A DNA stretch of 64,000 bases from Sipunculus nudus (lineage: Eukaryota; Annelida; Sipuncula; Golfingiida; Sipunculidae), in assembly GCA_026874595.1 (NCBI GenBank), contig CM049316.1:62045176-62109175 (forward strand), in the 5' to 3' direction. The notes under the pieces were generated by a model, which was given only the letters and a program-made list of their open reading frames with translations, did no database searches and was not told where the DNA came from. Made by a program: the position numbers and the translations under genes. Below, one piece after another: positions 1-21,779 of this stretch; position 1 is the first letter of the stretch, and every line of letters begins with the position of its first letter.

Positions 1-816
1 TTCACGAAGACGACGGTTTGAGAACCACTTCCTTACCTGCTCTGGTTTGATGTTACCCATCTGTGCCAGGGACTCAATAGTCGCAGCATCTGGGTACGGA
101 TTGTCCTGGTGAAGACTGTACCAGTTCTGTAGGATCTGCTGGGCCACTGTGTTAAGCTTGGATGACTTTTTGACTGGTGCAGAGCTGGAACTTGTCTGAT
201 GGCCCGACAAACTTTGCTGCGACTTGCCAGCTTCTAGTGTGCTGCACCACTGCTCCATCCTGTCGAGCAGATGGCCATGCACATCGTCATAGTAACTGTT
301 GATTCTTGGAGCTTGCCATGGTAACGCTGCTGAGTTGCACAGAGCGATGTAGCGGTCTGACTCCATCTGACCAGCCTGCATGGTGTAGAAGTTCTGTAGC
401 TCCTGGATGTACTGCTTGTCTTGTGCTTCCAGGGATAACAGCTTCAGTTTCAGTAGACTCATACGCAAAGTCAGTGGCATCTGGCTTGTGACTGGTGCAA
501 TTGATGCAGTACTGTGACAGTCCTGCTGCAGAGCTGTCTGCAGGGACGAGTAGAGCGGTGCTGAAGACATCTAAGTCAGGCTTGGAGCTGGACTTCCAGA
601 GTGTTCAGTGGAATGGCTGGTGACAGACAACATATTAGATGGCGCCATTGAGGTAGCAGCATGATCAATCTCAGTACTGTGTGTTGAAGCAGGAAAACCA
701 GAAGACTGCATCACTGTAGCTGGTGTATAACGGAGTCCATTGCTGTTTGTTGAATACAGATAACTGGTGTTGTCTTAGTAGGAGCCTGCCCCATACTGTG
801 TGCTGAAGCTGTCCAT
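1..816 (-). pseudogene. TALE-class homeobox gene copy 1, partial at window edge, two nonsense codons
   Basis: This is a near-identical copy of the intact gene at 7879-8796, offset by 7980 bp, with the same start-codon context at 816. Two in-frame stops are visible. Codon 14 (AAA in copy 2) reads TAA at 777-775, and codon 82 (CAG in copy 2) reads TAG at 573-571. The rest of the frame stays open into the homeodomain, which the window edge cuts just after the third helix. The recognition helix reads WFSNRR, so homeodomain residue 50 is Ser where the other three copies have Ala. A helix-2 Tyr has become Ser. The lack of frameshifts and the few differences suggest recent loss of function. Restart at an internal Met after codon 82 would spare the homeodomain, so a short homeodomain-only product cannot be excluded. 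Confidence 0.85.
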
Positions 817-969
817 CTTTGTTTATGCTGCAAACTACCTCTGTCGTCGGTTATTTTCTCTTCAGTTACTTTGGTACTCCTTAGTCTTTAAATCAGAATC
901 TGTCTCAGCTGGTGTGGAACCTGGTCAGAAGTAACTCTGCAAGTGTTGCTACATACCCAGATCACTCAG

Positions 970-997
970 CATAAATACCTGTATCTTGCTTTGATCA
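970..997 (-). promoter_or_regulatory. Core promoter of TALE copy 1 (TATTTA box plus GATCAAAG)
   Basis: On the minus strand GATCAAAG (996-989) precedes TATTTAT (977-971), about 155 bp upstream of the ATG at 816. The same pair at nearly the same spacing occurs before copies 2, 3 and 4. The promoter is intact although the coding frame is broken, so the pseudogene may still be transcribed. Confidence 0.5.
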
Positions 998-1399
998 GGG
1001 ACATTAAGGGCCCACTTTACCTACAGTTAGGTAAACCACAGAACAAACTAATTAGGATAAACCAACTAATAAAACAAACTGTGAGCATGATTTTACCCTG
1101 TATAATTCTTTAGGCCTTTGCTTATAACATGTACACTAAGTGATTAACAAACTGAGATGAAGCTCAGTAATAATTTGCTCTATAAAGGTAAACATTAATG
1201 TCACCGTCTGTTTGGTCTTCACAGGAATTGCTGATGCACGATTCACTTCATTATCTGTCTTTGATATAATTTTCTGAGGTTGTTCTTTATGGCTCAGTGA
1301 CTGTTTACCCAATCTGTCAATCTGATTTAAAAATAATTAATTAGAATTAAAGGCCACAGTTATAAACTATTTTGATTAATTAAACATTTTATGGGACAC

Positions 1400-4300
1400 T
1401 TACAGCTACAATTTATAAATGTAGTTAAGATTTGTTTAATGAACCATTTCACATACCTAAAAATTGTCCATATTTATTTAATTTAAGGTAAAATTATCTT
1501 TAACTAGACTTTTATTTGTTAATCAATCAATTTGATTTTAACATTACATAGTGTCTTCAGGTAACAAAATGTATATTTTAAACCTTATGTTTTATTTCAA
1601 AATTTATGTTTTATATTTTGCTACAATTTGTTTGAGAATTAATAGTTCATTTAAGGGTGCATTGCATTTTCCATTTAGTTAATTTATTTACAATTTTCAA
1701 AAGCAAACTATTATTTACCAAAAGTACATTACAATCAATGATTTAAAGATATAGTTCCACAAAGCTGCAAATTGTTTTTTAAAATATGTTCACATCAGAT
1801 GATTTGTGGTGTCCAGGATAATATGTTTGGGCAGTGGTGTAATGGTTAAGGTGCCTAAAGATTTTATTTCATTAATAATAGTGGAAATTAAAAAGAATAA
1901 AATTGCTCTATAAAATTAAAGTTTAGTGTTTGTTCTATTAAACCAAAGAAGAAAAAATTTATAACAAAAGGGGCTTCTTAAATAAAATGTATTATTTAAT
2001 TTTTTATAACTCAACAAGCATACGTAATATAAGGTTTATAATTATGCATATTTGAATTATGCATATGAATAGTACAGACTGAATTTAGAAACTGTCCTTC
2101 AGATTATTGTAAGAAGATTGGAACAGATTTAAGGTATCATTATTGTTTAAAACCCCTATATCTAACATTGATCTAAAATTGCTTTATATTATAAGCTCCC
2201 AGTAACAATAATCCACTTTTTAATGGAGTAGTATTAAAATACATGAAAATATCTCAAAAACATTTTTTATTTCCTCTATCATGTGTCTATCAACCCTAAT
2301 ACTGGAATTTGAAGTTTTATTCCATAATAAATTTAAAATTTCATTTTTTAACAAGAAAAACAAAGTAGAGGAAAAAAGTTTTTGAGATATTGTGTAATAT
2401 TAATTCATTAAAAAGTTGCTCATTGTTACTGGGTAAAAAATTTTTAAAATTTGTTACAAAATCATGTGAAAATGTATGAAAAGTTAAAAAGTATGTAAGC
2501 CATCAGAAAGCTCATGGTACCAGATTTAAAATAATGTACACTTTATGAGGTCTAATATGAATTTAATCCACATTTGAACCAATTTTAGTTTCAGGGGTTT
2601 TAGACAATAATGATAGTATACCTTAAGGCTGATATAATTTTGGAACAGACTGATTTTAAAATAAAAAACAATTTAATATTTACAATGTAAATTTATAACT
2701 TTTTTCCTTGGACGGTTTTGATGTACATGTTACACATAGTCATTATTGTAAATTATATTTGGCATTTATTTTCTGAGAAATAAACATTTTAAATTTTTTT
2801 TAATATTTAAAAATATCTGATTTTACAAACTTTTTTCAAAAATATTACTTCTTCAATAGTTAAAACGAGCAGACAAATCTTTAATCTTGATATAAAGGTT
2901 TTACTTTTTATATTCCATTAAAAATTATAATACAAACAAAAAGTTTAGGCCTGTCATTTGACCCTAGCATGAGCAGGAAAAATGAGGTACTGGCCTGGTG
3001 CAGATAAAATTTAAAGGTCTTCATGGGTTACGAAAATCATTGAACAACTGCTGGTCTCATTTTGAATTAACCCCCTGTACTTGAGTGTCAGTGTGAATTT
3101 AATTTTGAATTTTTTTGCCTCTTCATAATAATATATTATGGATTAAGAAGATATTATTACTGTACAATTTCAGTCTAGTTTCTTCCTCACAACTAAGACT
3201 GCGCTCAGCAAAAAGTAATTTGCATCAAGTATAAACCATGAAGGGGCTTGACACACAAAGTTTCAAAGTAATGAGCTGGATCAAGTTCAGTGGAAATTTT
3301 AAAAGTTATTCTCCAGATTTTCATTTAAAAAGTGTACATTCATTGCACTGGAGCTGGAGTTTTTTGTTCAAGGTCAATCTGTGGACTGTCATGACTTTGG
3401 GTTACTTCCCTGATTGCACCTTAAATATGCTTATCTCTCTTATCACTGATATAATCTGAAATTTGGTTGTTTAATATAATGTTGATGAAAAGTAGAACTT
3501 TCATTCAACAAACTAGATAACCACATACACAGAAAGCATGGGTTTACAAATACCATACAAAATAATGTCATTTGGAAAATCCCACAGGTGGCACATGAAC
3601 TATTGATCATTCAGGGTGAGCAAAATTTAGTGTTTGCTAGAGTCTGTGCAAAACCCTTTGGTTTCAACACAGGTTCATCTGGTTGCCAGGTTGCCAGGTT
3701 TCCATGTGTGACCTGTCAGATGTGATTGCAATGTTGGAAACCAGATCTGTGGAAATATGTTTTTTTTCAACTTTTGGGATAATATGTCACTAAATACACT
3801 TGGTGGACCAATTGACCAATTATTTTGATGATTGCAATGCACAGCTGGTTCTATCATTAACAGATAATGATTAAGATAATCATGCATAGTGATCATGTAT
3901 AGCGTAAATTTTAACAGGTGAAAGGAAAGACCTATAGTTAAGTTAGCAGGGAAAGCAAACAGCCCAGGACACACAAATGAACGACTTAATGACTGTATGA
4001 CTTTGAATTGAACACTCTAAGTCTACAGCCCTAGTGCTGTTGTTGTATATATTTATTTGACAACTGACTGATATAAAATTCATCTTGGTACAAACTGTTT
4101 TTGATTGAGAATTAGCATAGGAAACACAGGCAAATAAAGGGAAAAAAGGGAAATATGTGGATGGTTGGATATTATGATAAATTAGATGTGGATTTTAATT
4201 TTTACACAGATCAATCGAAACATTTTGTATCTTCAATATTATTTTGAAGGAACTGGAATAATTTCTGGTTAAAGAGTGGTCTTTGCTAGGGTCACCATAC

Positions 4301-5280
4301 AGAGTTTATTGGGTGTTGAGAGATATGTCCATATCTTGTTCGAGGTTGTGATTTCATGTATAAATCTTTCATATATATAATGCACACTCAAGGTAAAAAT
4401 GGTAGGAGTCTTTTATCAGAGATCCACATGTACAGGAAGGATTGTCAATGATGTGAGGTGGTGTTAAGTGGTAATGTAGATTGCTACATTTCAATCTTAA
4501 TCTTGTATGGTATATTTGTCATTTTGTTCCCCAATGAAGTAGTTTATGGGCAGTTTCAGGTTTGTAAATAAACATTTTTTTTAAGTGTATTAACACTGTA
4601 AATATTTTGTATTTCAATATTTAGGCTATTCCACTTAGTGATAGTATTGTGTAAAAATGATTTTCGTTAAAGTGATTTGTTGGCATGAACTGAATTGATG
4701 TGACTGGTACCTCTTCTCAGAACATTGTCATGTATTGAATGGTGAGGGGTAAAAATTGCACAGGTAAATATGGCACAATGGTAAACTAGGAAAAAATGGC
4801 ACACTAAAAGATATATAAATGTTACAGCCCAAATATGTAACATTTATCTATGATTATCATGTAATATATGTTCAAACAGCTTTCAGGAAAGTTCTGAGTT
4901 GTTAGTATAATAATAATCTGAAAATGATAAAAATAAACAACTGAAGTCAGAATCTCATTTACATGTTTGTGAACAAGTATAATAGAAATCGTATTTAAAA
5001 ATATACATTCTATATAAGCAAATTATATAAGCAGCTGTGGCAAACAACCAACCATGCAAGTACTCAGTAGTGACTCAGGTACTCAGTTTGGTCACGTAAT
5101 GAGTAGCTGTATCTGGTTAATGAAGCATAGTTTAATTAGGTGTGTATCTTCTCAGCCATAGGAGAGTTGATTTTGTTTATAATAACGCACAGCTAGCTTG
5201 GGTCTGTTGTGCTCACACAAAGGTAATTATAGGTTGTTTGTGTTAATGAGTACCATGCCATGCAGGTGACTTTCATGTTT
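1400..5280. other. AT-rich non-coding spacer of unit A
   Basis: I see no gene here. The sequence is AT-rich with many in-frame stops, and it is nearly all repeated in unit B (about 9380-12540). Around 1830-1858 a stretch contains TGGTGTAATGG, which fits a pol III A box, but no B box follows it. The block around 4605-4785 recurs at about 16298-16460, and the block around 4140-4380 recurs at about 18108-18400. Confidence 0.7.
3024..3708. other. Segment present in unit A, missing from unit B
   Basis: Unit B joins AGGTCTTCAT directly to TTGACCTGTC near 10958-10972, while unit A has about 685 bp between these two motifs. I see no terminal inverted repeats or target-site duplication, so a deletion from B is more likely than an insertion into A. 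The short open frame at 3238-3459 inside it has no recognisable similarity. Confidence 0.6.
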
Positions 5281-5287
5281 GTTTGAA

Positions 5288-6100
5288 TCAATGACTGTTA
5301 GAATGGCCTTTCCTTATCCTTTGATGTAGGTAGCTGTGTTTGAACCAAGGCAAAAGCTGGCTTGTTTTCTGTATTGAATATGTGTTGATTAGATTGCATT
5401 TATAAATTGAAGCTTCATATCTAAACATTTTGAATAATAAAATTATTTGTTGGGTGTTTTGTCTTTTTTGTAGAGTATCAAGACATGTTTCCTGGTATAA
5501 TAAGCTGTGACTGGTATATCCATCCCCCCTAGTAATGATTCTTGCTGCTTCTAATTGCACTTTTTTGAGTTTTTATGACAGCTTTTTCTTCACTAAAGAT
5601 GTTTCATATGATGGAACCGTATACTAATACAGGTCTAATGTAGCTATAAAACTTTAGATGAAGGGATTTTCTATCCAAGTACCATTTTATTAATATCAGG
5701 ATTAGCAGTCTATTACTAGCTTTTTGTACAATTTCATTTATGTGATTGTTCCAAAGACAATCATGACTTTAGATGATGCCCAAGTGTTCATGTTGATGAA
5801 ATTTTTTAATCTAAGTCTCAACTTACATCAGCAGTGCGTGATTAGATAAGATTCATTTGCAGCAAAATGTGATAGAGTGTTTTACTTGCATAAATCTTTA
5901 CCAACCAATTTTTTTCCAAGTGTTTTTTACACAGATCAAAAATATGTTTGCCACGAAAAATTTATAAAAATTTCTCTACAGTATGTTTTGCAAAATTTTG
6001 CAGATACATGAAGCTAAAAAACCTGTTCTGTAGTTTAAGGGATGTGATTTGTCACTTTTTTATAAATTGGTGTCACATGAGATCTTCTCCATTGTACTGG
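5288..6100 (-). mobile_element. Non-LTR retrotransposon 3' remnant (RT C-terminal region)
   Basis: The minus-strand frame from 5560 begins MQLEAARIITRGDGYTSHSL. This resembles the conserved 'LQLEAARIVTG..RYTS...LY.ET' segment that follows the reverse transcriptase in Jockey/CR1-like LINEs. Upstream minus-strand sequence, to about 6100, reads in pieces as the region before it and is broken by stops. The RT core itself is deleted in this copy but survives in the homologous fragment at 18440-19460. Confidence 0.75.
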
Positions 6101-6945
6101 CAATTCTTCTAACTCCAGGGATATATTAAATAATCTATACAGTGTAAAGCTCAGTTCAGTGGAACATTCATTAAGTTAGTGCACTTTTTTCATGAAAATC
6201 TGAGTCACAGCTAAAACTTTTGAATGATACCAATCTAACCCATTTCCTTAATTGTTAATATTTTATTTACATTTTGATTAGTACAATATACATCATGGTA
6301 AAAAACAGCATATGACTGAGCATGCACTTTACTTTTTGGTAGGTTTTTTTACTTAATTTAATTCATTTAAGACCAAGAAACTGAGCAAAGATAATTGCAG
6401 GTGTCATTGAAGAACATGGTTTGAAATGAAGACAAGAATGTGGGAAAAGGGTCTGATCTTAAAATGGAATTAAAGAATTAAGGCGGCAACATGGTAGTAT
6501 GGGTGGATGGATGAATGAAAAGCCAGTAGGGTAGAGAAATCAAACCTATTTCCTTAAAACTTTGTGTGCATCAGGCCCCTTTCAACTTTTTATTTATTTA
6601 ATGCAAAGTACTTTATGCCAAGCTCAAACTTAGTTTTTAGATAGAAGATGAGCTGAATTTGTACAGTAAAATAACATATTCCCTATTCCTAAATATTCTG
6701 GATTTTATATGTAGATTGTTTAATTTTATCTACACTATACTCAGACACAGATTGACACAGATGTTATCTTAAGATTAAGGGTGGGATTAAACATGGTTTT
6801 CTTTCATGTATGTGAAATGGTTCATTATACAAATCTAACTGTCATTAAAAAGGTGCAGCTGTTATTGTTTCATAAAATGTTTAACTAATCAACTAATTTA
6901 ACAAAAACATGCTTTGAAAATTAAATCCTCAGCAGGGAAAAAACG

Positions 6946-7545: not shown

Positions 7546-7637
7546 TTTAGTATCCTGGGAAGAATTGGGGTTATGGGTATAAATTCTAGGGCACCTTTGT
7601 ATTTAAGAAACTCAATCATTCTTTAACTTTGCAACAA

Positions 7638-7878: not shown

Positions 7879-8796
7879 TCACTGTTCTCTTGGTTGTTTA
7901 GCATCTTCCTGAAGGTCAGAGGGGTCATCCAGGGGGCGCTTGAATCCTCTGGTGATCTCTTGTCGGTATCTGGATTTCTGTTCACGAAGACGACGGTTTG
8001 CAAACCACTTCTTGACCTGCTCTGGTTTGATGTTACCCATCTGTGCCAGGTACTCAATGGTCGCAGCATCTGGGTAAGGATTGTCCTGGTGAAGACTGTA
8101 CCAGTTCTGTAGGATCTGCTGGGCCACTGTGTTAAGCTTGGATGACTTTTTGACTGGTGCAGAGCTGGAACTTGTCTGATGGCCCGACAAACTTTGCTGC
8201 AACTTGCCAGCTTCTAGTGTGCTGCACCACTGCTCCATTCTGTCAAGCAGACGGCCATGCACATCGTCATAGTAACTGTTGATTCTTGGAGCTTGCCATG
8301 GTAATGCTGCTGAGTTGCACAGAGCCATGTAGCGGTCTGACTCCACCTGACCAGCCTGCATGGTGTAGAAGTTCTGTAGCTCCTGTATGTACTGCTTGTC
8401 GTGTGCTTCCAGGGATAACAGCTTCAGTTTCAGTAGACTCATACGCAATGTCAGTGGCATCTGGCTTGTGACTGGTGCTGCTGGTGCAGTACTGTGACAG
8501 TCCTGCTGCAGTGCTGTCTGCAGGGACGAGTAGAGCGGTGCTGAAGACATCTGAGTCAGGCTTGGAGCTGGACTTCCAGAGTGTTCAGTGGAATGGCTGG
8601 TAACAGACAACATATTAGATGGCGCCATTGAGGTAGCAGCATGATCAAGCTCAGTACTGTGTGTTGAAGCAGGAAAACCAGAAGACTGCATCACTGTAGC
8701 TGGTGTATAACTGAGTCCATTGCTGTTTGTTGAATACAGATAACTGGTGTTGTCTTTGTAGGAGCCTGCCCCATACTGTGTGCTGAAGCTGTCCAT
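7879..8796 (-). CDS. TALE-class homeodomain transcription factor, copy 2 (intronless)
   Basis: A single open frame of 305 residues, predicted to be a nuclear DNA-binding regulator. Residues ~1-110 are Ser/Thr/Gln-rich low complexity. Residues ~111-196 form a block conserved in all copies (from SQMPLTLRMSLLKLK to MEQWCSTLEAGK), which I do not recognise as a named domain. After a Ser-rich linker, residues ~214-280 form a homeodomain. Its three extra residues before PYP in the helix 1-2 loop (HQDNPYP) and the WFANRR third helix (Ala at position 50) mark the TALE superclass. The tail is basic, then acidic. Known families (PBX, MEIS, IRX, TGIF) do not match outside the homeodomain, so a lophotrochozoan-specific TALE (SPILE-like) gene is the best guess. 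The ATG sits in AAAG-ATGGA, conserved in all copies. The gene is divergent from copy 3. Identity as TALE is firm; function is inferred. Confidence 0.93.
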   Translation of the reverse strand: MDSFSTQYGAGSYKDNTSYLYSTNSNGLSYTPATVMQSSGFPASTHSTELDHAATSMAPSNMLSVTSHSTEHSGSPAPSLTQMSSAPLYSSLQTALQQDCHSTAPAAPVTSQMPLTLRMSLLKLKLLSLEAHDKQYIQELQNFYTMQAGQVESDRYMALCNSAALPWQAPRINSYYDDVHGRLLDRMEQWCSTLEAGKLQQSLSGHQTSSSSAPVKKSSKLNTVAQQILQNWYSLHQDNPYPDAATIEYLAQMGNIKPEQVKKWFANRRLREQKSRYRQEITRGFKRPLDDPSDLQEDAKQPREQ

Positions 8797-9380
8797 CTTT
8801 GTTTATGCTGCAAACTACCTCTGTCGTCGGTTATTTTCTCTTCAGTTACTTTGGTACTCCTTAGTCTTTAAATCAGAATCTGTCTCAGCTGGTGTGGAAC
8901 CTGGTCAGAAGTAACTCTGCAAGTGTTGCTACATACCCAGATCACTCAGCATAAATACCTGTATCTTGCTTTGATCAGGGACATTAAGGGCCCACTTTAC
9001 CTACAGTTAGGTAAACCACAGAACAAACTAATTAGGATAAACCAACTAATAAAACAAACTGTGAGCATGATTTTACCCTGTATAATTCTTTAGGCCTTTG
9101 CTTATAACACGTACACTAAGTGATTAACAAACTGAGATGAAGCTCATTAATTAATTGCTCCATAAAGGTAAACATTAATGTCAACGTCTGTTTGGTCTTC
9201 ACAGGAATTGCTGATGCACGATTCACTTCATTATCTGTCTTTGATATAATTTTCTGAGGTTGTTCTTTATGGCTCAGTGACTGTTTACCCAATCTGTCAA
9301 TCTGATTTAAAAATAATTAATTAGAATTAAAGGCCACAGTTATAAACTATTTCGATTAATTAAACATTTTATGGGACACA
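8797..9380 (-). repeat. Promoter-proximal inverted repeat, left arm
   Basis: Read on the minus strand, this segment is homologous to 14100-14626 upstream of copy 3. Shared blocks include TTGGGTAAACAGTCACTGAG, CCTAATTAGTTTGTTCTG and the GATCAAAG/TATTTA pair. It represents the common ancestral promoter of the family, here in inverted orientation. Confidence 0.8.
8950..8977 (-). promoter_or_regulatory. Core promoter of TALE copy 2
   Basis: On the minus strand GATCAAAG (8976-8969) is followed by TATTTAT (8957-8951), about 155-160 bp before the ATG at 8796. A GGGCCC-centred block lies just upstream. The same order appears in front of copies 3 and 4 on the plus strand. GATCAAAG matches the TCF/LEF core (CTTTGATC on the other strand). 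Factor identity is inferred. Confidence 0.6.
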
Positions 9381-12300
9381 ATTTATAAATGTAGTTAAGA
9401 TTTGTTTAATGAACCATTTCACATACCTAAAAATTGTCCATATTTATTTAATTTAAGGTAAAATTATCTTTAAGTAGACTTTTATTTGTTAATCAATCAA
9501 TTTGATTTTAACATTACATAGTGTCTTCAGGTAACAAAATGTATATTTTAAACCTTATGTTTAATTTCAAAATTTATGTTTTTTATTTTGCTACAATTTG
9601 TTTGAGAATTAATAGTTCATTCAAGGGTGCATTGCATTTTCCATTTAGTTAATTTATTTACAATTTTCAAAAGCAAACTATTATTTACCAAAAGTACATT
9701 ACAATCAATGATTTAAAGATATAGTTCCACAAAGCTGCAAATTGTTTTTTAAAATATGTTCACATCAGATGATTTGTGGTGTCCAGGATAATATGTTTGG
9801 GCAGTGGTGTAATGGTTAAGGTGCCTAAACATTTTTGTATCATTATTAATAGTGGAAATTAAAAAGAATAAAAATAGCTTTATAAAATTAAAGTTTAGTG
9901 TTTGTTCTATTAAACCAAAGAATTTTACACAAAAGGGGCTTCTTAAATAAAATGTATTATTTATTTTTTTATAACTCAAGCATATGTAAAATAAGGTTTA
10001 TAATTATGCATATATGAATAATGCATATGAATAGTACAGACTGAATTTAGAAACTGTCCTTCAGATTATTGTAAGAAGATTGGAACAGATTTAAGGTATC
10101 ATTATTGTTTAAAACCCCTATATCTAACATTGATCTAAAATTGCTTTATATTATAAGCTCCCAGTAACAATAATCCACTTTTTAATGGAATAGTATTAAA
10201 ATACATGAAAATATCTCAAAAACATTTTTATTTCCTCTATCAACCCTAATACTGGAATTTGAAGTTTTATTCCATAATAAATTTAAAATTTCATTTTTTA
10301 ACAAGAAAAACAAAGTAGAGGAAAAAAGTTTTTGAGATATTGTGTAATATTAATTCATTAAAAAGTTGCTCATTGTTACTGGGTAAAAAATTTTTAAAAC
10401 TTGTTACAAAATCATGTGAAAATGTATGAAAAGTTAAAAAGTATGTAAGCCATCAGAAAGCTCACGGTACCAGATTTAAAATAATGTACACTTTATGAGG
10501 TCTAATATGAATTTAATCCACATTTGAACCAATTTTAGTTTCAGGGGTTTTAGACAATAATGATAGTATACCTTAAGGCTGATATAATTTTGGAACAGAC
10601 TGATTTTAAAATAAAAAACAATTTAATATTTACAATGTTAATTTATAACTTTTTTCCTTGGACGGTTTTGATGTACATGTTACACATATAGTCATTATTG
10701 TAAATTATATTTGGCATTTATTTTCTGAGAAATAAACATTTAAAATTTTTTTTAATATTTAAAAATATCTGATTTTACAAACTTTTTTCAAAAATATTAC
10801 TTCTTCAATAGTTAAAAAGAGCAGACAAATCTTTAATCTTGATATAAAGGTTTTACTTTTTATATTCCATTAAAAATTATAATACAAACAAAAAGTTTAG
10901 GCCTGTCATTTGACCCTAGCATGAGCAGGAAGAATGAGGTACTGGCCTGGTGCAGAAGGTCTTCATTTGACCTGTCAGATGTGATTGCAATGTTGGAAAC
11001 CAGATCTGTGGAAATATGTTTTTTTTCAACTTTTGGGATAATATGTCACTAAATACACTTGGTGGACCAATTGACCAATTATTTTGATGATTGCAATGCA
11101 CAGCTGGTTCTATCATTAACAGATAATGATTAAGATAATCATGCATAGTGATCATGTATAGCGTAAATTTTAACAGGTGAAAGGAAAGACCTATAGTTAA
11201 GTTAGCAGGGAAAGCAAACAGCCCAGGACACACAAATGAACGACTTAATGACTGTATGACTTTGAATTGAACACTCTAAGTCTACAGCCCTAGTGCTGTT
11301 GTTGTATATATTTATTTGACAACTGACTGATATAAAATTCATCTTGGTACAAACTGTTTTTGATTGAGAATTAGCATAGGAAACACAGGCAAATAAAGGG
11401 AAAAAAAGGGAAATATGTGGATGGTTGGATATTATGATAAATTAGATGTGGATTTTAATTTTTACACAGATCAATCGAAACATTTTGTATCTTCAATATT
11501 ATTTTGAAGGAACTGGAATAATTTCTGGTTGAAAGAGTGGTCTTTGCTAGGGTCACCATACAGAGTTTATTGGGTGTTGAGAGATATGTCCATATCTTGT
11601 TCGAGGTTGTGATTTCATGTATGAATCTTTCATATATATAATGCACACTCAAGGTAAAAATGGTAGGAGTCTTTTATCAGAGATCCACATGTACAGGAAG
11701 GATTGTCAATGATGTGAGGTGGTGTTAAGTGGTAATGTAGATTGCTACATTTCAATCTTAATCTTGTATGGTATATTTGTCATTTTGTTCCCCAATGAAG
11801 TAGTTTATGGGCAGTTTCAGGTTTGTAAATAAACATTTTTTTTAAGTGCATTAACACTGTAAATATTTTGTATTTCAATATTTAGGCTTTTCCACTTAGT
11901 GATAGTATTGTGTAAAAATGATTTTCGTTTAAGTGATTTGTTGGCATGAACTGAATTGATGTGACTGGTACCTCTTCTCAGAACATTGTCATGTATTGAA
12001 TGGTGAGGGGTAAAAATGGCACAGGTAAATATGGCACAATGGTAAACTAGGAAAAAATGGCACACTAAAAGATATATAAATGTTACAGCCCAAATATGTA
12101 ACATTTATCTATGATTATCATGTAATATATGTTCAAACAGCTTTCAGGAAAGATACTGAGTTGTTAGTATAATAATAATCTGAAAATGATAAAAATAAAC
12201 AACTGAAGTCAGAATCTCATTTACATGTTTGTGAACAAGTATAATAGAAATCTTACTTTATATATACATTCTATATAAGCAAATTATATAAGCAGCTGTG

Positions 12301-12540
12301 GCAAACAACCAACCATGCAAGTACTCAGTAGTGACTCAGGTACTCAGTTTGGTCACGTAATGAGTAGTTGTATCTGGTTAATGAAGCATAGTTTAATTAG
12401 GTGTGTATCTTCTCAGCCATAGGAGAGTTGATTTTGTTTTTAATAACGCACAGCTAGCTTGGGTCTGTTGTGCTCACACAAAGGTAATTATAGGTTGTTT
12501 GTGTTAATGAGTACCATGCCATGCAGGTGACTTTCATGTT
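9380..12540. other. AT-rich non-coding spacer of unit B
   Basis: This is the copy of the unit A spacer with small indels and the 685 bp absence near 10960. I see no gene. The short frames at 10916-11233 and 11817-12104 are not conserved as reading frames in unit A and resemble nothing I know. Confidence 0.7.
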
Positions 12541-12547
12541 TGTTTGA

Positions 12548-13390
12548 ATCAATGACTGTTAGAATGGCCTTTCCTTATCCTTTGATGTAGGTAGCTGTGT
12601 TTGAACCAAGGCAAAAGCTGGCTTGTTTTCTGTATTGAATATGTGTTGATTAGATTGCATTTATAAAATTGAAGCTTCATATTTAAACATTTTGAATAAT
12701 AAAATTATTTGTTGGGTGTTTTGTCTTTTTTGTAGAGTATCAAGACATGTTTCCTGGTATAATAAGCTGTGACTGGTATATCCATCCCCCCTAGTAATGA
12801 TTCTTGCTGCTTCTAATTGCACTTTTTTGAGTTTTTATGACAGCTTTTTCTTCACTAAAGATGTTTCATATGATGGAACCGTATACTAATACAGGTCTAA
12901 TGTAGCTATAAAACATTAGATGAAGGGATTTTCTATCCAAGTACCATTTTATTAATATCAGGATTAGCAGTCTATTACTAGCTTTTTGTACAATTTCATT
13001 TATGTGATTGTTCCAAAGACAATCATGACTTTAGATGCCCAAGTGTTCATGTTGATGAAATTTTTTAATCTAAGTCTCAACTTACATCAGCAGCGCGTAA
13101 TTAGATAAGATTCATTTGCAGCAAAATGTGATAGATAGTGTTTTACTTGCATAAATCTTTACCAACCAATTTTTTACCAAGTGTTTTTTACACAGATCAA
13201 AAATATGTTTGCCACGAAAAATTTATAAAAATTTCTCTACAGTATGTTTTGCAAAATTTTGCAGATACATGAAGCTAAATAACCTGTTCTGTAGTTTAAG
13301 GGATTTGATTTGTCACTTTTTTTATAAATTGGTGTCACATGAGATCTTTTCCATTGTACTGGCAATTCTTCTAACTCCAGGAATATATTA
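12548..13390 (-). mobile_element. Non-LTR retrotransposon 3' remnant (unit B copy)
   Basis: Duplicate of the remnant at 5288-6100, with the same internal deletion of the RT core. A 1-bp insertion (ATAAAATTG for ATAAATTG, near 12665) breaks the frame that is open in unit A. It is an antisense passenger upstream of copy 3. Confidence 0.7.
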
Positions 13391-14099
13391 AATAATCTAT
13401 ACCGTGTAAAGCTCAGTTCAGTTGAACATTCATTAAATTAGTGCACTTTTTTCATTCATTATTTCATTCATTAAGTTAGTGCACTGAGTCACAGCTAAAA
13501 ATTTCGAATGATACCGATCTAACCCATTTCCTTAATTGTTAATATTTTATTTACATTTTGATTAGTACAATATACATCATGGTAAAAAAAAATATGACTG
13601 AGCATGCACATTACTTATTGGTAGGTTTTTTTACTTAATTTAATTCATTTACAAAAGATAATTGCAGGTGTCATTGAAGAACATGGTTTGAAATGAAGAC
13701 AAGAATGTGGGAAAAGAGTCTGATCTAAAAATGGAATTAAAGAGTTGAGGAGGAAACATGGTAGAATGGGTGGATGGATGAATGAAAAGCCAGTAGGGTA
13801 GAGAAATCAAACCTATTTCCTTAAAACTTTGTGTGCATCAGGCCCCTTTCAACTTTTTCTTTATTTAATGCAAAGTACTTTATGCCAAGCTCAAGCTTAG
13901 GTTTTAGATAGAAGATGAGCTGAATTTGTACAGTAAAATATGTAGACTGTTTAATTTTATCTACACTATACTCAGACACAGATGGACACAGATGTTATCA
14001 TAAGATTAAGGGTGGGATTAAACATGGTTTTCTTTCAGGTATGTGAAATGGTTCATTATACTAATCTAACTTTCATTAAAAAAGTGCAGCTGTTATTGT

Positions 14100-14626
14100 T
14101 TCATAAAATGTTTAACTAATCACAATAGTTTATCACTGGGGCCATTATTCTAATTAATTATTATCAATTCAGACTTATAGATTGGGTAAACAGTCACTGA
14201 GCCATAAAGCACAACCTTAAAAAATAAGATCAAAGACAGATAATGAAGTGAAAAGTGATAATGATGAATACTTAAATAGAACAATTTAATTAATTAGCTT
14301 CACCTCAATTTGTTAATCACTTGGTGTACATATTATAATCAAAGGCCTGAAGAATTATACTAGGTAACATCATGGTCACAGTTTGTTTCATATCAGGTTG
14401 ATCATCCTAATTAGTTTGTTCTGTGGTTTACCTTACTGTAGGTAAAGAGGGCCCTTTATGTCCAAGATCAAAGTAAGTTACAGGTATTTAAACTGAGATA
14501 TCTGAGTATGAATCAACACTTGCAGAGATACATCTGACCAGTAACCACACCAGTTGAGACAGATAAACCTCTATAAACTGGAGAGAAAATAACCTATATC
14601 CGAGGTAGTTTGCAGCATAGACAAAG
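14100..14626 (+). repeat. Promoter-proximal inverted repeat, right arm
   Basis: Homologous in inverted orientation to 8797-9380. It is also homologous in direct orientation to about 20320-20861 upstream of copy 4, although that copy has diverged (for example the GGGTAAACAG block is lost). Confidence 0.8.
14228..14492 (+). promoter_or_regulatory. Promoter of TALE copy 3
   Basis: Two GATCAAAG sites (14228-14235 and 14466-14473) and a TATTTAAA box (14485-14492) lie about 135-400 bp before the ATG at 14627. A GGGCCCTTTATGTCC block sits at about 14449-14463. Both GATCAAAG sites are matched upstream of copy 4; the proximal one is also matched before copies 1 and 2. Confidence 0.6.
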
Positions 14627-15532
14627 ATGGACAGCTTCAACACACAGTATGGTGCAGGATCCTTCCAAGACAATACCAGTTATCCATATTCAACAAACAG
14701 CACTGGATTCAGTTATGCACCAGCTACAGTGATGCAGTCTTCTGGTTTTCCTACTTCAACACACAGTACTGAGCTTTATCATGCTGCTACCTCAATGGCA
14801 CCATCTAATATGTTGTCTGTTACCAGTCATTCCACTGAACACTCTGGAAGTTCTGCTCCAAGCCTGACACAGATGTCTACAGCTCCACTCTTCTCTTCCC
14901 TGCAGGCAGCTCTACAGCAGGACTGCAACAATACTGCATCATTTGCACCAGTCACCAGCCAGATGCCGCTGACTTTGCGTATGAGTCTACTGAAACTGAA
15001 GCTGTTATCCCTGGAAGCTCTTGACAAGCAGTACATCCAGGAGCTACAGAACTTCTACACCATGGTGGAGTCAGACCGCTACCTCGCTCTGTGCAGCTCA
15101 GCAGCGTTACCATGGCAAGCTCCAAGAATCAACAGTTACTATGATGATGTGCATGGCCGCCTCCTTGATAGGATGGAGCAGTGGTGCAGCACACTAGAAG
15201 CTGGCAAGTCGCAGCAAAGGTTTTCGAGCTCCCTGACAAGTTCCAGCACTGCACCAGTCAGAAAGTCATCCAAGCTGAACACAGTTGCACAGCAGATCCT
15301 ACAGAACTGGTACAGTCTTCATCAGGACAATCCTTACCCAGATGCTGCGACCATTGAGTACCTAGCAAAGATGGGTAACATCAAACCAGAGCAGGTCAAG
15401 AAGTGGTTCGCAAACCGTCGTCTTCGTGAACAGAAATCCAGATACAGGCAAGAGATCATTAGAGGATGCAAGCGCCCCCTAGAGGACCCATGTGACCTTC
15501 AAGAAGATGCTAAACAACCAAGAGAACAGTGA
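14627..15532 (+). CDS. TALE-class homeodomain transcription factor, copy 3 (intronless)
   Basis: A single open frame of 301 residues with the same architecture as copy 2: a Ser/Thr/Gln-rich N-terminus, the family-specific conserved block, a Ser-rich linker, a TALE homeodomain with HQDNPYP loop and WFANRR helix, and a charged tail ending KQPREQ. Relative to copies 2 and 4 it lacks four residues (QAGQ) between NFYTM and VESDRY, an in-frame 12-nt deletion. The substitutions concentrate in the N-terminal region and linker while the homeodomain is nearly unchanged, which suggests purifying selection. It is transcribed away from copy 2. No splice sites are needed to explain the frame. Nuclear DNA binding follows from the homeodomain; targets and expression are unknown. 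Confidence 0.93.
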   Translation: MDSFNTQYGAGSFQDNTSYPYSTNSTGFSYAPATVMQSSGFPTSTHSTELYHAATSMAPSNMLSVTSHSTEHSGSSAPSLTQMSTAPLFSSLQAALQQDCNNTASFAPVTSQMPLTLRMSLLKLKLLSLEALDKQYIQELQNFYTMVESDRYLALCSSAALPWQAPRINSYYDDVHGRLLDRMEQWCSTLEAGKSQQRFSSSLTSSSTAPVRKSSKLNTVAQQILQNWYSLHQDNPYPDAATIEYLAKMGNIKPEQVKKWFANRRLREQKSRYRQEIIRGCKRPLEDPCDLQEDAKQPREQ

Positions 15533-15773: not shown

Positions 15774-15779
15774 ATAAAT
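15774..15779 (+). terminator. Poly(A) signal of TALE copy 3
   Basis: AATAAA occurs about 240 bp after the stop codon, in the context TTGAAATAAATATGTTGC. It aligns with the signal downstream of copy 2. Confidence 0.6.
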
Positions 15780-15784
15780 ATGTT

Positions 15785-16280: not shown

Positions 16281-16297
16281 AACATATATATATATAT

Positions 16298-16460
16298 TGT
16301 ATTTCAATATTTAGGCTATTCCACTTGGTGATAGTATTGTGTAAAAATGATTTTCGTTAAAGTGATTTGTTGGCATGAACTGAGTTGACGGACTGGTACC
16401 TATTCTCAGAACATTGTCATGTATTGAATGGTGAGGGGTAAAAATGGCACAGGTATAAAT
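16298..16460. repeat. Displaced copy of the 4605-4785 segment
   Basis: The run TATTTCAATATTTAGGCTATT through GGTGAGGGGTAAAAATGGCA matches units A (4605-4785) and B. Here it lies downstream of copy 3 rather than in the upstream spacer of copy 4, where collinearity would place it. Confidence 0.7.
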
Positions 16461-16464
16461 GGCA

Positions 16465-16930
16465 AATGTGCCATGGTCAAACTTGGGCAAAATTTAAGGT
16501 ACTAATTATATATTTATACTAAAAACTTATACAATTTGAAAAATTCAGAACTAATTTTTGGTATTCAATTGAATCTTGATTAAATAATGTTACATTCCTG
16601 ACAAAAAATCTCTAGCTATAACAATCCTCTTGTTAAGGGAGTAAATATATTTCTTGATTTTTTAAAAAGTGCATCATGTTAGGGCCCATAACTTAAAACA
16701 ATTACGCAATACTGACATCATTTCTGGCATGTGCTTAGCGAATGTATAGAAAAATATGTATATTATATATGATCAAAGTCAGATCAGTGGTTTTGATATT
16801 AGGCAGTCTTACAGTGTAACATTGGGTTTTTAATGGAAAAATGAAGTTTTTCATTATTATTTCAAAGGAATTAAGTCCTAGTGATCAAATGCTTGGCATG
16901 GAAGAGATTTTGGAGTATGCCAAATTTAAG
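16465..16930. repeat. Second copy of the 6946-7545 dispersed repeat
   Basis: This stretch, beginning near GCCATGGTCAAACTTGGGCA, is a diverged copy of the element at 6946-7400. It lacks the GGACAGAYGGAC tail. It is non-coding. Confidence 0.6.
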
Positions 16931-17109
16931 GAACTTAGAGCTGAAGCTGGGGAGCTTGATGTAAACAAAATGTGACATGGTGCTTGAAAACTTGAATAAA
17001 ATCTACAATTTGATCAACTGGTTTCAAATTTTTGGTGTTAACAGTTGAAATGGTAACAAACACATGCTTTGAAAATTCAATTTGAAAAACAATCCACAAA
17101 ATGCTTTTT

Positions 17110-18100
17110 GAAGATATTCTGCTCACATGGCCAAAGTTGAAAAATCTGATAAAAATTCAATAAAATCAGAAATTGTAGGTAGCCCCGAAACTTGTGGAGC
17201 AGGTACAGACCATCAGTCCCAATGATCATAGTAAGTTTTGTGAAAATCCACCCAAAGGTTTCTGAGAATTAAGGTTCTAAGAGTTTTTCTATATTCAGCT
17301 CTAAAACGTAGAAAAATTGGTCAAGGTCACCCATCTTCCAACTTGACTGAGAAATTGTCAATATAAATCTTCACTGATGAAATAAAATTCCCATGGTGAA
17401 TCCTTTTAGAGATATCTTGCTCACAGGGCCAAAGTTGAAAAATCCGATAAAAATTAATTAAAAATCAGAAATTGCAGGTGGCGCCACCAAACTTGTGCAG
17501 CAGACAGAGACCATCAGTCCCAATTATCATAGTAAGTTTTGTGAAAATCCACCCAATGGGCTCTGAGAATTAAGCTTCTACGTGTTTTCTTATAATCGGC
17601 TCTCGAACGTAGAAAAATAGGTCAAGGTCACCAATCTTCGAACTTGACCAAGATTTTGTCAATATACATCTTCATTGAAGAAATAAAATTCCTACGGTGA
17701 ACCCTTTTAGAGATATCCCGCTCACAAGACCAAAGTTGAAAAATCCAATAAAACTTAATTAAAAATCAGAAATTGTAGCTGGCACCACCAAACTTGTGCA
17801 GCAGGTACAGACCATCAGTCCAAATGACCATAGTAAGTTTTGTGAAATTCCACCCAATGGTTCCTGTGAAAAAATCTTCTGAGTGTTTTTCTATAATCAG
17901 CTCTAAAATGTAGAAAAATAGGTCAAGGTCACCCATCTTAAAACCTGACCGAGATTTTGTCAATATACATCTTCAGCGAAGAAATAAAATTCCTACGGTG
18001 AATCCTGTAAGAGATATCCCGCTCACAAGGTAATTGTTAACGGACAGACAGCTTGGATGACACAATAGCCCATCAGCCTCAGGGCTGAGGGCTAAAAAGG
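17110..18100. repeat. Three ~300 bp tandem monomers ending in a hairpin
   Basis: GCTCACA followed by GGCCAAAGTTGAAAAATC or a variant recurs at about 17130, 17420 and 17720; GCTCACAAGG at about 18022 starts the divergent end. The unit also repeats CAGACCATCAGTCC and GGTCAAGGTCACC. The end carries ACGGACAGACAG and then a palindrome, TAGCCC (18066-18071) with GGGCTA (18089-18094). Tandem core plus 3' hairpin is the layout of non-autonomous Helentron-type elements; the class assignment is inferred. Confidence 0.65.
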
Positions 18101-18328
18101 GTAACAAATGGATAGTTGGATATAATGATAAATCAGATTTGGATTTTAATTTTTACACAGTCATGCAAAGATCAGTGGAAACATTTTGTATCTTCAATAT
18201 AATTTTGAAGGAACTGGAATAATTTCTGGTTCAAAGAGTGGTCTTTACTAGGGTCACCATACAGAATTTATAAGGTGTTGAAAGATATGTCCATATCTTG
18301 TTTGAGGTTGTGATTTCATGTATGAATC

Positions 18329-18332
<4 letters not shown>

Positions 18333-18393
<61 letters not shown>
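18333..18393. repeat. (TA)n microsatellite
   Basis: An uninterrupted AT/TA dinucleotide run of about 60 bp. The same site in units A and B has only four or five repeats, so it expanded in this copy. Confidence 0.95.
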
Positions 18394-18396
<3 letters not shown>

Positions 18397-18439
18397 CACA
18401 CTCAAGGAAATAATGGTAGGCATCTTCAATCATATTTAA

Positions 18440-19460
18440 ACATTTTGTACAATAAAATTATTATCTGTTGGGTGTTTACCTTTTCATAGAGTATCAAGAC
18501 AATAATAGGTTGTGACTGGTACCATTTACACCCCTGGTAATAATACTTGCTGCTTCTAATTGGCATTTACTCGAGTTTGTCTGACAGCTCCTCATTACAG
18601 GTATTCCATATAATGGAACCGTGTATGGGTCTAAAGTCAGTCTAATGTAGCTATTATACATTAGATGAAGGGATTTTCTATCCAGATACTATTTCATTTG
18701 TTTATGGATTAGTAGTCTATTATTAGCTTTTTGTACAATTTCATTTATGTGATTGTTCCAAAGACAATCATGACTTAAGATGATGCCAAGTGTTTATACT
18801 GTTGAACATCTTTAATTTTAGAACCGCCTAGTATTAGTTGAGGGTGATTTGATTTGCTTGTGGCTAAATATGATAGATTCAGTTTTATTTGCTTAAAACT
18901 TGACCAACCAATTTTTTACCAAGTGTGGATTTTACACAGATCCTCATCAGTTATTTTACCTCAAGGGTTGGATTTTCCACAGTGGTGTAAAATCATAGTA
19001 TCATCAGCAAATGATTTAACATCACTAGTAATGTTGTTTGCAAGATCTTTCATGAACGTCAGGAACAGCTGAGGTCAAAGGATGGATCCTTGTGGTACTC
19101 CTGATGTGTACGCCCAAGCAGAAAACTCATCATCCAATCATATGCTGTGTTCTTTTTTTGTTAAATATTGTACTATCCATCTTAGAAATTTACCTTTGAT
19201 ACCTGCAGAGTTTAATTTTGATAGTAAGCCTCTAATTCATAACTCATCAAAAGCTTTACCTATGTCAAGGAACACTGCTCTTATTTCTTTGTTGTTGTTG
19301 AGTGACTGACAAATTGAGTTATATAGATCTACAAGTTGGTAAGTGGTGTTATTACACGGTATAAAGCCTGACAGGTGAACCAAAAAAAAAGTTTGCCACG
19401 AGAAAATTATAAAAATTTCTGTACTGTATGTTTGACCTGCAAAATTTTGCAGATACATGA
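18440..19460 (-). mobile_element. Non-LTR retrotransposon remnant retaining RT motifs
   Basis: Read on the minus strand, this degenerate element shows FLDIGKAFDEL near 19237-19270, SGVPQGSI near 19080-19100 and FADDT near 18990-19005. These are reverse transcriptase motifs in the right order, followed by the C-terminal region shared with the remnants at 5288 and 12548. In-frame stops and frameshifts make it inactive. It resembles Jockey/CR1-group LINEs; the clade is uncertain. It lies antisense upstream of TALE copy 4, in the position it occupies upstream of copy 3. Confidence 0.85.
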
Positions 19461-20320
19461 GGTTAAAGAAATTAGTCTGTAGTTTAGGGGATTTTGATTT
19501 GTCACCTTTTTCATATATGGATCACATGAGAACTTTCCAATTTAACTGGCAATTCTTCTGACTCCAGGAATAAATTCAATAATCTATACAGTGGAAAGCT
19601 AAGTTCAGATGAACATACATTAAAAAAGTGCTATGAATGTACGCCTTTGTCTGTGAAAATTTGGAGTCACAGCTAAAAATTTCTAATAAAACTGATCTCA
19701 CCCCTTTCCTAAATTATCTATATTTTATTGAAATTTAAATTAGAACAATGTACATCATGGAATGATAAACATGGGATTGAGCACAAGCATAACTCACTGG
19801 TAGCTTTTTTCCTGGTTTAATTCATTTACAATCATATGAGCAAGTAAGTGAGCAAAGATAATTGTGTGTCATTGAAGAAGATGGTTCAAAATAAAGACTA
19901 GAATGTAAGAAATGAGTCTGATATTAAAATGGAAATACAGAGTTAAGGAGGTAAAAGAGTGGTATGGGTGGATGAAAGGATAACAGGGAAGAGAAATCTA
20001 ACCCATTTCCTTAAAACTTTGTGTGTATTGGGCCCCTTTCTGCTTTGTATTTATTAAATGCAATACCTTATGATGAGCTCAAGCTTAGTTTTGAGGTAGA
20101 AACTGAATCTGTACAGTAATAGTATATTTTCTCAATCCTAAATATCCTGGTTTCATATGTGGACTGTTATATTTTTTCTGCACTTAACTCAAAAACAGAT
20201 GGACAGATTTATCACCTAATTACTTAAAGTTAAATGTGGGATTAAATATGGTTTCCTGTCAGGTATATGAAATGGTTCCTGAGGATTCCAACTATTATTT
20301 ATAAATTGTAGCTGCTTTGT
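19461..20320. other. Non-coding spacer upstream of TALE copy 4
   Basis: No gene is seen. The sequence is a diverged copy of about 6010-6850 in unit A and 13260-14100 in unit B. Shared landmarks include the AACTTTGTGTG...GGCCCCTTTC block. Confidence 0.7.
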
Positions 20321-20457
20321 GTAAAAAAATGTTAACAAATCAAAATAGTTAATCACTGTGCCCACTAATTCTAATTAAATAATATCAAATCAAATTGACA
20401 GCTTGCGAATACAAATATTACAATAATTGAGCTATAGAGCACAACCTCATAATATAA

Positions 20458-20713
20458 GATCAAAGAGAAGACCAAACAATGATAATAATGAATACTTTCA
20501 TAGAACAATTTAATTAATTAGCTTCATCTCAGTTTGTTTATCAACAGGTGTACAAGCTATTAACAAGGCCTGAAGAAATACACTAGGTAACATCATGGTC
20601 ACAGTTTGTTTCATCAGGTTGATAATCCTAATTAGTTTGTTCTGCGGTTTACTTAACTGTAGGTATAGAGGGCCCTTTATGTCCCAGATCAAAGTAAGTT
20701 ACAGGTATTTAAA
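20458..20713 (+). promoter_or_regulatory. Promoter of TALE copy 4
   Basis: GATCAAAG occurs at 20458-20465 and 20687-20694, a GGGCCC-type block at about 20670, and TATTTAAA at 20706-20713, about 150 bp before the ATG at 20862. Order and spacing match copy 3. Confidence 0.6.
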
Positions 20714-20861
20714 CTGAGAGATCTGAGTACAAATCAAAACTTGCAGAGATACATCAGCCCAGCTGAGACAGATTCTTGAGTTAAAGACTACAGATTACCA
20801 AAGTACCTCTATAAACTAGAGAAAGCACCTACGACAGAGGTAGTTTGCAGCATAGACAAAG

Positions 20862-21779
20862 ATGGACAGCTTCAACACACAGTATGGTGCAGGATTCTTC
20901 CAAGACAACACTATTTATCTGTGTTCAGCAAACAGCAATAGATTCAGTTATACACCGGCTACAGTGATGCAGCATTCTGGTATTCCTGCTTCAACACACA
21001 GTACTGAACTTGGTAATGCTGCATCTACAGCAGCGCCATCTTCAGGGTTTTCTATGACCAGTCATTCCACTGAACACTCAAGTTCTGCTCCAAGCCTGAC
21101 TCAGATGTCTTCAGCACCGATCTACTCGTCCCTCGTGCAGGCAGCTCTACAGCAGGACTGTCACAGTACTGCACCAGTTGCACCAGTCACCAGCCAGATG
21201 CCGCTGACTTTGCGTATGAGTCTACTGAAACTGAAGCTGTTATCCCTGGAAGCACACGACAAGCAGTACATCCAGGAGCTACAGAACTTCTACACCATGC
21301 AGGCTGGTCAGGTGGAGTCAGACCGCTACATCGCTCTGTGCAACTCAGCAGCATTACCATGGCAAGCTCCAAGAATCAACAGTTACTATGACGATGTGCA
21401 TGGCCGCCTCCTCAGCAGGATGGAGCAGTGGTGCAGCACACTAGAAGCTGGCAAGTCACAGCAAAGTTTGTCAGGCTACCAGACAAGTTCTAGCACTGCA
21501 CCAGTCAGAAAGTCATCCAAGCTGAACACAGTGGCCCAGCAGATCCTACAGAACTGGTACAGTCTTCACCAGGACAATCCGTACCCAGATGCTGCGATCA
21601 TTGAGTACCTGGCACAGATGGGTAACATCAAAACTGAGCAGGTCAGGAAGTGGTTCGCAAACCGTCGTCTTCGTGAACAGAAATCCAGATACAGACAAGA
21701 TATCACTAGAGGATTCAAGCGCCCCCTGGAGGACCCATGTGACCTTCAAGAAGATGCTAAACAACCAAGAGAACAGTGA
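20862..21779 (+). CDS. TALE-class homeodomain transcription factor, copy 4 (intronless)
   Basis: A single open frame of 305 residues. The N-terminal ~110 residues are the most divergent of the family. The central block, from about residue 108 to 196, and the TALE homeodomain are close to copies 2 and 3. Homeodomain differences are conservative: an Ile replaces Thr in DAATIEY, KTEQVRKW replaces KPEQVKKW, and the WFANRR recognition helix is unchanged. It keeps the QAGQ residues missing from copy 3. A TATTTAAA promoter precedes it and an AATAAA signal follows. The gene ends about 710 bp from the nearest AOAH exon, which is on the opposite strand. It is probably a functional nuclear regulator; the role is not known. 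Confidence 0.93.
   Translation: MDSFNTQYGAGFFQDNTIYLCSANSNRFSYTPATVMQHSGIPASTHSTELGNAASTAAPSSGFSMTSHSTEHSSSAPSLTQMSSAPIYSSLVQAALQQDCHSTAPVAPVTSQMPLTLRMSLLKLKLLSLEAHDKQYIQELQNFYTMQAGQVESDRYIALCNSAALPWQAPRINSYYDDVHGRLLSRMEQWCSTLEAGKSQQSLSGYQTSSSTAPVRKSSKLNTVAQQILQNWYSLHQDNPYPDAAIIEYLAQMGNIKTEQVRKWFANRRLREQKSRYRQDITRGFKRPLEDPCDLQEDAKQPREQ

Follow-up and report, generated by a model that had tools for sequence, protein, structure and literature searches.

A 64,000-nucleotide stretch of the Sipunculus nudus genome, hereafter the window (C11:62045176-62109175, in an assembly of 1.4265 Gb whose contigs we number C1 upwards), contains four homeobox genes of the TALE class, here called copies A to D. 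We consider it likely that these are four of the five genes in a tandem cluster of the spiralian-specific SPILE A/C type (TALE-VI-like), that the cluster is one of eight places in the genome together holding 63 loci, mostly duplicated locally, and that the genes have a role in early cleavage, this last by inference from published relatives. The fifth copy, intact and on the minus strand, lies just left of the window (C11:62039380-62040300); the five genes span about 28 kb, three pointing left and two right. A preliminary description had reported four intronless TALE genes within about 22 kb, and a stop-to-stop scan of open reading frames (ORFs) recovered all four, each with the Pfam domain Homeobox_KN above its curated cut-off (E 2.2e-10 to 9.9e-10). 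About 20 residues N-terminal of the homeodomain, the genes also encode a shared block of some 85-90 residues, which we call PADRE-like. The coding features are as follows.

1..816, minus strand: copy A, decaying, interrupted by in-frame stops (codons 14 and 82) and running off the window edge
1-570, minus strand: open frame of copy A from Met83, retaining the PADRE-like block and the homeodomain
1..171, minus strand: homeodomain of copy A (WFSNRR, QVRK), incomplete at the window edge
7879..8796, minus strand: copy B, intact, single exon, 305 aa plus stop (ORF without stop 7882-8796)
7960..8151, minus strand: homeodomain of copy B (QVKKWFANRR)
8197..8487, minus strand: PADRE-like block of copy B
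14627..15532, plus strand: copy C, intact, single exon, 301 aa plus stop (ORF without stop 14627-15529)
14936..15214, plus strand: PADRE-like block of copy C, 4 residues shorter
15260..15451, plus strand: homeodomain of copy C (QVKKWFANRR)
20862..21779, plus strand: copy D, intact, single exon, 305 aa plus stop (ORF without stop 20862-21776)
21171..21461, plus strand: PADRE-like block of copy D
21507..21698, plus strand: homeodomain of copy D (QVRKWFANRR)

TALE homeodomains are distinguished by three extra residues between helices 1 and 2 (PYP), and all four copies possess this insertion in the loop HQDNPYP(D). The recognition motif is WFANRR in B, C and D and WFSNRR in A only; loop and helix are thus as first described. 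A general Homeodomain model overlaps Homeobox_KN in each copy, and the remaining Pfam matches fall under the cut-off. Copies B, C and D, the three described at the outset as intact, begin with an ATG in ACAAAGATGG context and read to the stop within one exon, a statement that refers to the ATG-to-stop part and allows for an intron in the 5' untranslated part. Copy A has two in-frame stops; its 3' end, outside the window, is intact, so that the cut at the edge is not a true truncation. Chance ORFs were ruled out because of the Homeobox_KN E-values and the ratios of nonsynonymous to synonymous substitution (dN/dS) given below. No further copy was found in the window by tblastn with B and D, the best other match having E 0.29.

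Novel lophotrochozoan TALE clades were described by Paps et al. (2015, PMC5322547): clade VI of molluscs is marked by a QVKK motif, and clades VI and VII share a PADRE region of about 87 residues on the N-terminal side of the homeodomain. Further work has extended these clades (Barton-Owen et al. 2018, PMC6118893). Among the SPILE clades of Phuangphong et al. (2021, PMC8524836), A/C carries PADRE, B has two homeodomains and a modified PADRE, D has a modified PADRE and E is without it. From its place, its length, its sharing among copies and the stretch EADRY seen in the copies on C3, we infer that the block in the window genes is the published PADRE domain. When run against the A/C-type loci fetched by that stage, a profile built from the blocks of B, C and D found the block in their ORFs without exception (E 2.9e-13 to 3.4e-64); the window's own matches are by construction. 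In a search of ten proteins, a second block profile gave weak matches to a two-homeodomain protein (locus L018, E 1.5e-7) and a D-like protein (L025, E 9.5e-5); it matched neither IRX nor MKX nor any of the four E-like proteins. The block itself has no Pfam family above cut-off and no credible match among solved structures (one match, E 0.27). QVKK occurs in B, C and the fifth copy, and elsewhere in the fetched copies from C3, from C6 at 5.3 and 20.8 Mb and from C1 at 97.9 Mb, as well as in locus L040; QVRK occurs in A and D, in five C15 copies and in locus L041, while the C14 copies have QVKR.

Locus L018 (2555-4579; C1:17.28 Mb) contains an ORF of 675 aa with two TALE homeodomains, which do not pair in the tree, and with its weak PADRE-like match it has the architecture of SPILE-B. 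A group of PADRE-less genes resembles SPILE-E in that four representatives show no block match; its assignment to SPILE-E would follow from that absence in four members, and absence alone is no proof. In terms of architecture, therefore, the published clade pattern is mirrored inside this genome in A/C, B, D and E-like types.

A C6 copy served as query for a genome search in which all 120 candidates were scored; it returned 63 A/C-type loci, counting broken ones and homeodomain-bearing fragments and excluding a fragment without homeodomain at C15:15836454. The counts, read by hand from match lists, are distributed over eight places.

C3, 59.20-59.26 Mb: 19 loci
C15, 15.60-15.73 Mb: 19 loci
C6, 5.31-5.39 Mb: 14 loci
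C11, the window cluster: 5 loci
C1, 26.4 Mb: 2 loci
C14, 17.9 Mb: 2 loci
C6, 20.8 Mb: 1 locus
C1, 97.9 Mb: 1 locus

The PADRE-less group numbers 19 loci whose homeodomain is complete or almost so, one of them with a stop (103 of 114 candidates scored): four on C1 (8.76-8.80 Mb), four on C2 (88.59-88.61 and 8.84 Mb), seven and three on C6 (7.24-7.31 and 27.59-27.63 Mb) and one on C12 (4.06 Mb), plus three fragments on C1, C5 and C6; its proteins are mostly 400-440 aa long. There are two B-like genes (L018, with two homeodomains, and L053, with one) and one D-like gene (L025). The first search of the genome (150 of 179 candidates scored) gave 97 loci, a figure that includes SIX-like and CUX-like genes (L043 and L044, judged by eye) and is not a count of TALE genes. 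Among 97 pattern matches in bacterial or archaeal contigs and 68 in viral contigs, none encodes a relative. For comparison, the table of PMC8524836 gives nine A/C genes in Lottia, seven in oyster, eight each in pearl oyster and Mytilisepta and two in Nipponacmea; the SPILE totals reach 13, and each of the five species has a single E gene; 14 novel TALE genes are reported in oyster (PMC5322547), and we count 27 non-canonical TALE genes in Table 2 of PMC6118893 for the annelid S. lamarcki. Our literature searches listed no publication announcing a larger count. The scale in S. nudus is far beyond the published counts found, and beyond what the window alone shows; what is new is the very large expansion of a gene kind already known.

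The five-gene cluster records recent duplication. The proteins of the window copies are 84-95% identical (five pairs given), and being close paralogues they are 'divergent', as the preliminary description had it, only against other TALE families and not among themselves. Copies A and B lie in the two units of a direct segmental duplication of about 7 kb.

1..6903: left unit, carrying copy A
7981..14135: right unit, carrying copy B

Positions 1-3004 are 96.8% identical to 7981-10956, and 3709-6903 are 95.7% identical to 10968-14135. Around 650 bp of upstream sequence can be aligned among all four window copies and around 270 bp downstream are common to B, C and D, and these common flanks indicate copying by DNA. 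Informative sites of B, C and D are clumped: neighbouring sites carry matching labels in 62 pairs, where shuffling gives 38.2 (p 0.0002). This pattern suggests that the copies have undergone conversion or been selected unequally. When A and B are compared, the A branch has six nonsynonymous and three synonymous changes and one stop, and the B branch two and five (seven other differences and the second stop cannot be polarised); because of these changes copy A looks unconstrained. The PADRE-like block and the homeodomain of B, C and D are under purifying selection, with dN/dS of 0.07-0.22 and 0.06-0.19 respectively against 0.35-0.59 at the N-terminus. Comparisons between arrays (13 pairs and two domains, giving 26 values) yield 0.30 or lower in 21 cases and 0.50 at most, synonymous sites being saturated in the deepest pairs. 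The 7-kb duplication, the decay of A, the clumped sites and the arrays elsewhere together bear out the early impression of an actively evolving cluster.

The other arrays differ in condition. On C3 (C3:59195903-59262300; loci L010-L017) all 19 ORFs are open, single-exon and 289 codons long, the copies are 98.0-100% identical and encode 15 distinct proteins, and the ratio of nonsynonymous to synonymous differences per site (pN/pS) is 0.45. Their spacing is 3.0 kb (seven times) or 4.15-4.23 kb (nine times), with two exceptions of 3.6 and 2.9 kb. In 25 sampled pairs the 600 bp on each side have median identities of 98.7 and 98.6% against 99.0% for the genes, with outliers down to 48% and a median of 79% farther downstream. 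This is a homogenised, macrosatellite-like array of transcription factor genes. On C15 (C15:15599344-15726732), by comparison, matched pieces contain a stop in nine of 19 loci (some of these stops perhaps at an intron edge), against none of 19 on C3, and a first exon of about 34 codons stands apart from the rest of the gene, with a donor-like ATG|GTGAGT in locus L033; the sister copies on C6 (5.31-5.39 Mb) read through this junction. Statements on these two arrays refer to the five of 19 C15 genes and four of 14 C6 genes that were fetched. In a tree of block plus homeodomain (37 rows, leaving out copy A and L040), sequences group by location on C3 (98/94), C11 (98/92), C14 (100/99) and C15 (88/86), and on C6 at 5.3 Mb with only 50/0, which points to mostly local amplification.

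A first alternative sees the array as a by-product: copies arise by local duplication and decay neutrally, with no present role in the early embryo and selection on only one or two copies. The two stops of copy A and its neutral-like branch, the stops on C15 and in single A/C-type loci on C6, C1 and C14, and two C6 copies in which the block's end and the homeodomain's beginning are missing (L036 being the one inspected) are what this would predict. However, three window copies are constrained in both domains (dN/dS 0.06-0.22), every C3 copy is open at a pN/pS of 0.45, and upstream regions have been retained, and we regard the by-product explanation as unlikely.

A second alternative is that these genes descend from a canonical TALE family, PBX being the foremost candidate, and have evolved fast, rather than belonging to a spiralian-specific family. 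The homeodomains of the window genes are 25-40% identical to those of PBX1, exd, MEIS1, hth, PKNOX1, TGIF1, TGIF2LX, IRX, ara and MKX, and carry Lys, at what we take to be homeodomain position 47, where the canonical sequences compared have Asn or Thr. In a tree with canonical families the window type occupies its own branch (100/99), and membership of PBX, MEIS, PKNOX, TGIF, IRX or MKX was dropped on these grounds. A tree of 26 homeodomains, which omits copies A and C, the fifth copy, L004 (a 98-aa ORF of an unplaced TALE gene), hth and ara, places 11 A/C-type rows on one side of a branch with 100/99 and separates 17 non-canonical rows from nine others with 95/94, the nine being eight canonical sequences and L005, an unclassified homeodomain of the same genome. 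Constraining the A/C type with MEIS and PKNOX is rejected by the approximately unbiased test (p-AU 0.0201). Descent from PBX draws on the best solved-structure match of copy D, which is gap-free and is to PBX1 (E 1.7e-7; MEIS against PBX is stronger, 1.6e-14), and on a constraint with PBX that is not rejected (p-AU 0.179). Against it, identity with PBX1 and exd is only 35-40%, the PBC domain is absent from the Pfam matches of the window genes, and the 17 non-canonical homeodomains stand together; we hold it to be very unlikely. The phylogenetic check proposed at the outset thus gave, for its canonical part, no grouping inside a conserved bilaterian family in either tree, and the SPILE-type identity first suggested gains support from the tree, the PADRE-like block, QVKK in B and C and the clade-like complement of the genome.

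That the copies are independent retrocopies, as the absence of introns in the window, C3 and C6 (5.3 Mb) copies and the split C15 relatives might suggest, is contradicted by the shared upstream and downstream flanks and by the 7-kb segment carrying A and B, and is scarcely credible; a single earlier loss of the intron by retroposition, before amplification, is possible. The claim that all copies lack introns holds for the window and for the C3 and C6 (5.3 Mb) copies seen, and fails for the related C15 array with its split first exon.

Returning to the SPILE A/C reading, the upstream regions provide a possible link to early regulation. C and D have a TATAAA that A, B and the fifth copy lack at the corresponding place, and each window copy has a TCF/LEF-type octamer.

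817..1466, minus strand: upstream region (about 650 bp) of A, alignable among the four window copies
8797..9446, minus strand: upstream region (about 650 bp) of B
13977..14626, plus strand: upstream region (about 650 bp) of C, TATAAA at -55
20212..20861, plus strand: upstream region (about 650 bp) of D, TATAAA at -52
989..996: octamer CTTTGATC/GATCAAAG upstream of A
8969..8976: octamer CTTTGATC/GATCAAAG upstream of B
14466..14473: octamer CTTTGATC/GATCAAAG upstream of C, with a second one at 14228
20687..20694: octamer CTTTGATC/GATCAAAG upstream of D

PMC7315491 gives CTTTGATC as a canonical TCF7L2 motif. Within 400 bp of the ATG (less sequence was at hand for C14 and for three of the four C6 copies at 5.3 Mb) it is present in 35 of 39 A/C-type copies and in none of 11 B-, D- or E-like copies, although copies and homologous promoters are not independent in this count. 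By place it occurs in C11 5/5, C3 18/19 (an edge copy lacks it), C6 at 5.3 Mb 4/4, C15 5/5, C6 at 20.8 Mb 1/1, C1 at 97.9 Mb 1/1, C1 at 26.4 Mb 1/2 (the other at -420) and C14 0/2; other fetched loci have 14 in 112,406 bp. Promoters of C15 and C6 (5.3 Mb) are akin (83% over 589 bp), as are those of C6 (20.8 Mb) and C1 (97.9 Mb) (83% over 342 bp). The octamer was predicted for C15 before inspection and then found, a weak test because of the kinship between C15 and C6 promoters. In the annelid Platynereis, beta-catenin activity polarises cleavages (PMC5996498), which makes TCF input to cleavage-stage genes reasonable but unproven; the genes described here are perhaps under such input.

Several points weigh against our interpretation. 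The presumed SPILE membership is read from architecture and motifs; the three B-type homeodomains do not form one branch; the program issued long-branch warnings in both homeodomain trees; and the constraint with PBX mentioned above is not rejected. Constraint on the 17-residue linker that joins block and homeodomain does not extend to every pair, dN/dS reaching 2.8 in B versus C on very few changes (eight nonsynonymous and one synonymous). For the A/C gene CgTALE6, PMC8524836 describes hardly any expression, whatever the stage. The octamer was picked out post hoc, after looking at the sequences, and, when each of six unrelated lineages is represented by one copy, reaches four or five of the six depending on which C1 (26.4 Mb) copy is taken, or three with the C3 edge copy. 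In 600 shuffled sets CTTTGATC itself reaches at most three of six; some 8-mer reaches four in 20-29 of the sets and five in none, and in the real sequences GTGAATGA also reaches four.

If the assignment is correct, the proteins would be sequence-specific transcription factors that bind DNA through the TALE homeodomain, with Lys47 altering specificity relative to canonical TALE proteins and the PADRE-like block serving as an interaction domain for partners. Transcription of the genes would begin in early cleavage, with TCF/beta-catenin perhaps providing part of the control, and their products would help to assign blastomere fates. For such a function there are published models: a reported role of SPILE genes in blastomere specification in the limpet (Morino 2017, as related in PMC8524836 and PMC12550047); a role in the mussel suggested by expression (PMC8524836); published early expression, with A/C onset at 4-16 cells; and, in the annelid O. 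fusiformis, more than ten unclassified TALE homeoboxes among early-upregulated genes (PMC12550047). By analogy with these, the S. nudus genes may act in early cleavage. Spiral cleavage is highly conserved, yet the SPILE factors reported to assign its quartets turn over fast, and by the literature found the 63 A/C-type and 19 PADRE-less loci represent an extreme of this contrast. This genome makes it possible to test what drives SPILE turnover, be it copy number, TCF input at the promoters or change in the protein. It also offers material for the study of concerted evolution, since C3 carries a homogenised array, C15 one in decay, and the window a five-gene cluster that is still young. We also offer, tentatively and as an idea that may well prove wrong, that the homogenised arrays, above all C3, could be a dosage device, in which many promoters with TCF sites would yield enough fate factor within one short cell cycle for beta-catenin asymmetry to be read along the animal-vegetal axis. 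Were this true, early cell fate would vary heritably with copy number, and the arrays would be a spiralian counterpart of DUX4/D4Z4, reached independently with a different homeobox class.

Other features of the window and assembly are noted for completeness. An anillin exon lies at window 60132-60482 on the plus strand (Pfam Anillin_N, E 1.2e-9), the sole one of ten scanned ORFs above cut-off. A 331-bp tandem repeat of five units occupies 54176-55825, with related copies 16 kb away at 38041-38837, and a 301-bp repeat lies at 17100-18030; Rfam at the gathering threshold and ARAGORN returned no matches and no tRNAs in the window. Contigs C1-C7 and C11-C17 are 61-111 Mb each and C18 is 52.5 kb, which points to a probable 17 chromosomes. 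A search of the assembly for COX1-type genes gave bacterial-type genes or a nuclear mitochondrial-like fragment only: bacterial-type cytochrome oxidase genes of 577-578 aa (L045 read) are present on C60, C61, C62, C66, C72, C74, C75 and C89, and another bacterial-type oxidase on C123. The contigs bearing the former are symbiont or contaminant DNA inside an animal assembly.

Among known systems, the SPILE A/C genes of molluscs (clades VI, VII, XV and XVII; PMC8524836, PMC6118893, PMC5322547) are the closest parallel. They share a single TALE homeodomain with a PADRE of about 87-90 residues upstream, QVKK in clade VI, and near-identical tandem copies, eight in Lottia and seven on one chiton scaffold in the published descriptions. 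S. nudus differs in having 63 loci against up to nine published, in three arrays of 14-19, and in keeping spliced and single-exon arrays side by side in one genome. The PADRE-less group is like SPILE-E/TALE-III in encoding TALE homeodomain proteins without the block; in the five-species table there is one such gene per species, whereas here there are 19 loci and three fragments. L018 resembles SPILE-B/TALE-IV in its two homeodomains and weak PADRE-like match, whereas the second B-like gene, L053, has one homeodomain and a block judged by eye. Beyond the Spiralia, the mammalian DUX4 of the D4Z4 macrosatellite, which acts at zygotic genome activation (PMC12376486), is likewise a homeobox gene in a tandem array, with units of about 3 kb where those on C3 are 3.0 and 4.2 kb; DUX4, however, is a double-homeobox retrogene of another, unrelated class, and the likeness is one of arrangement and, if expression in S. 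nudus is early, of use.

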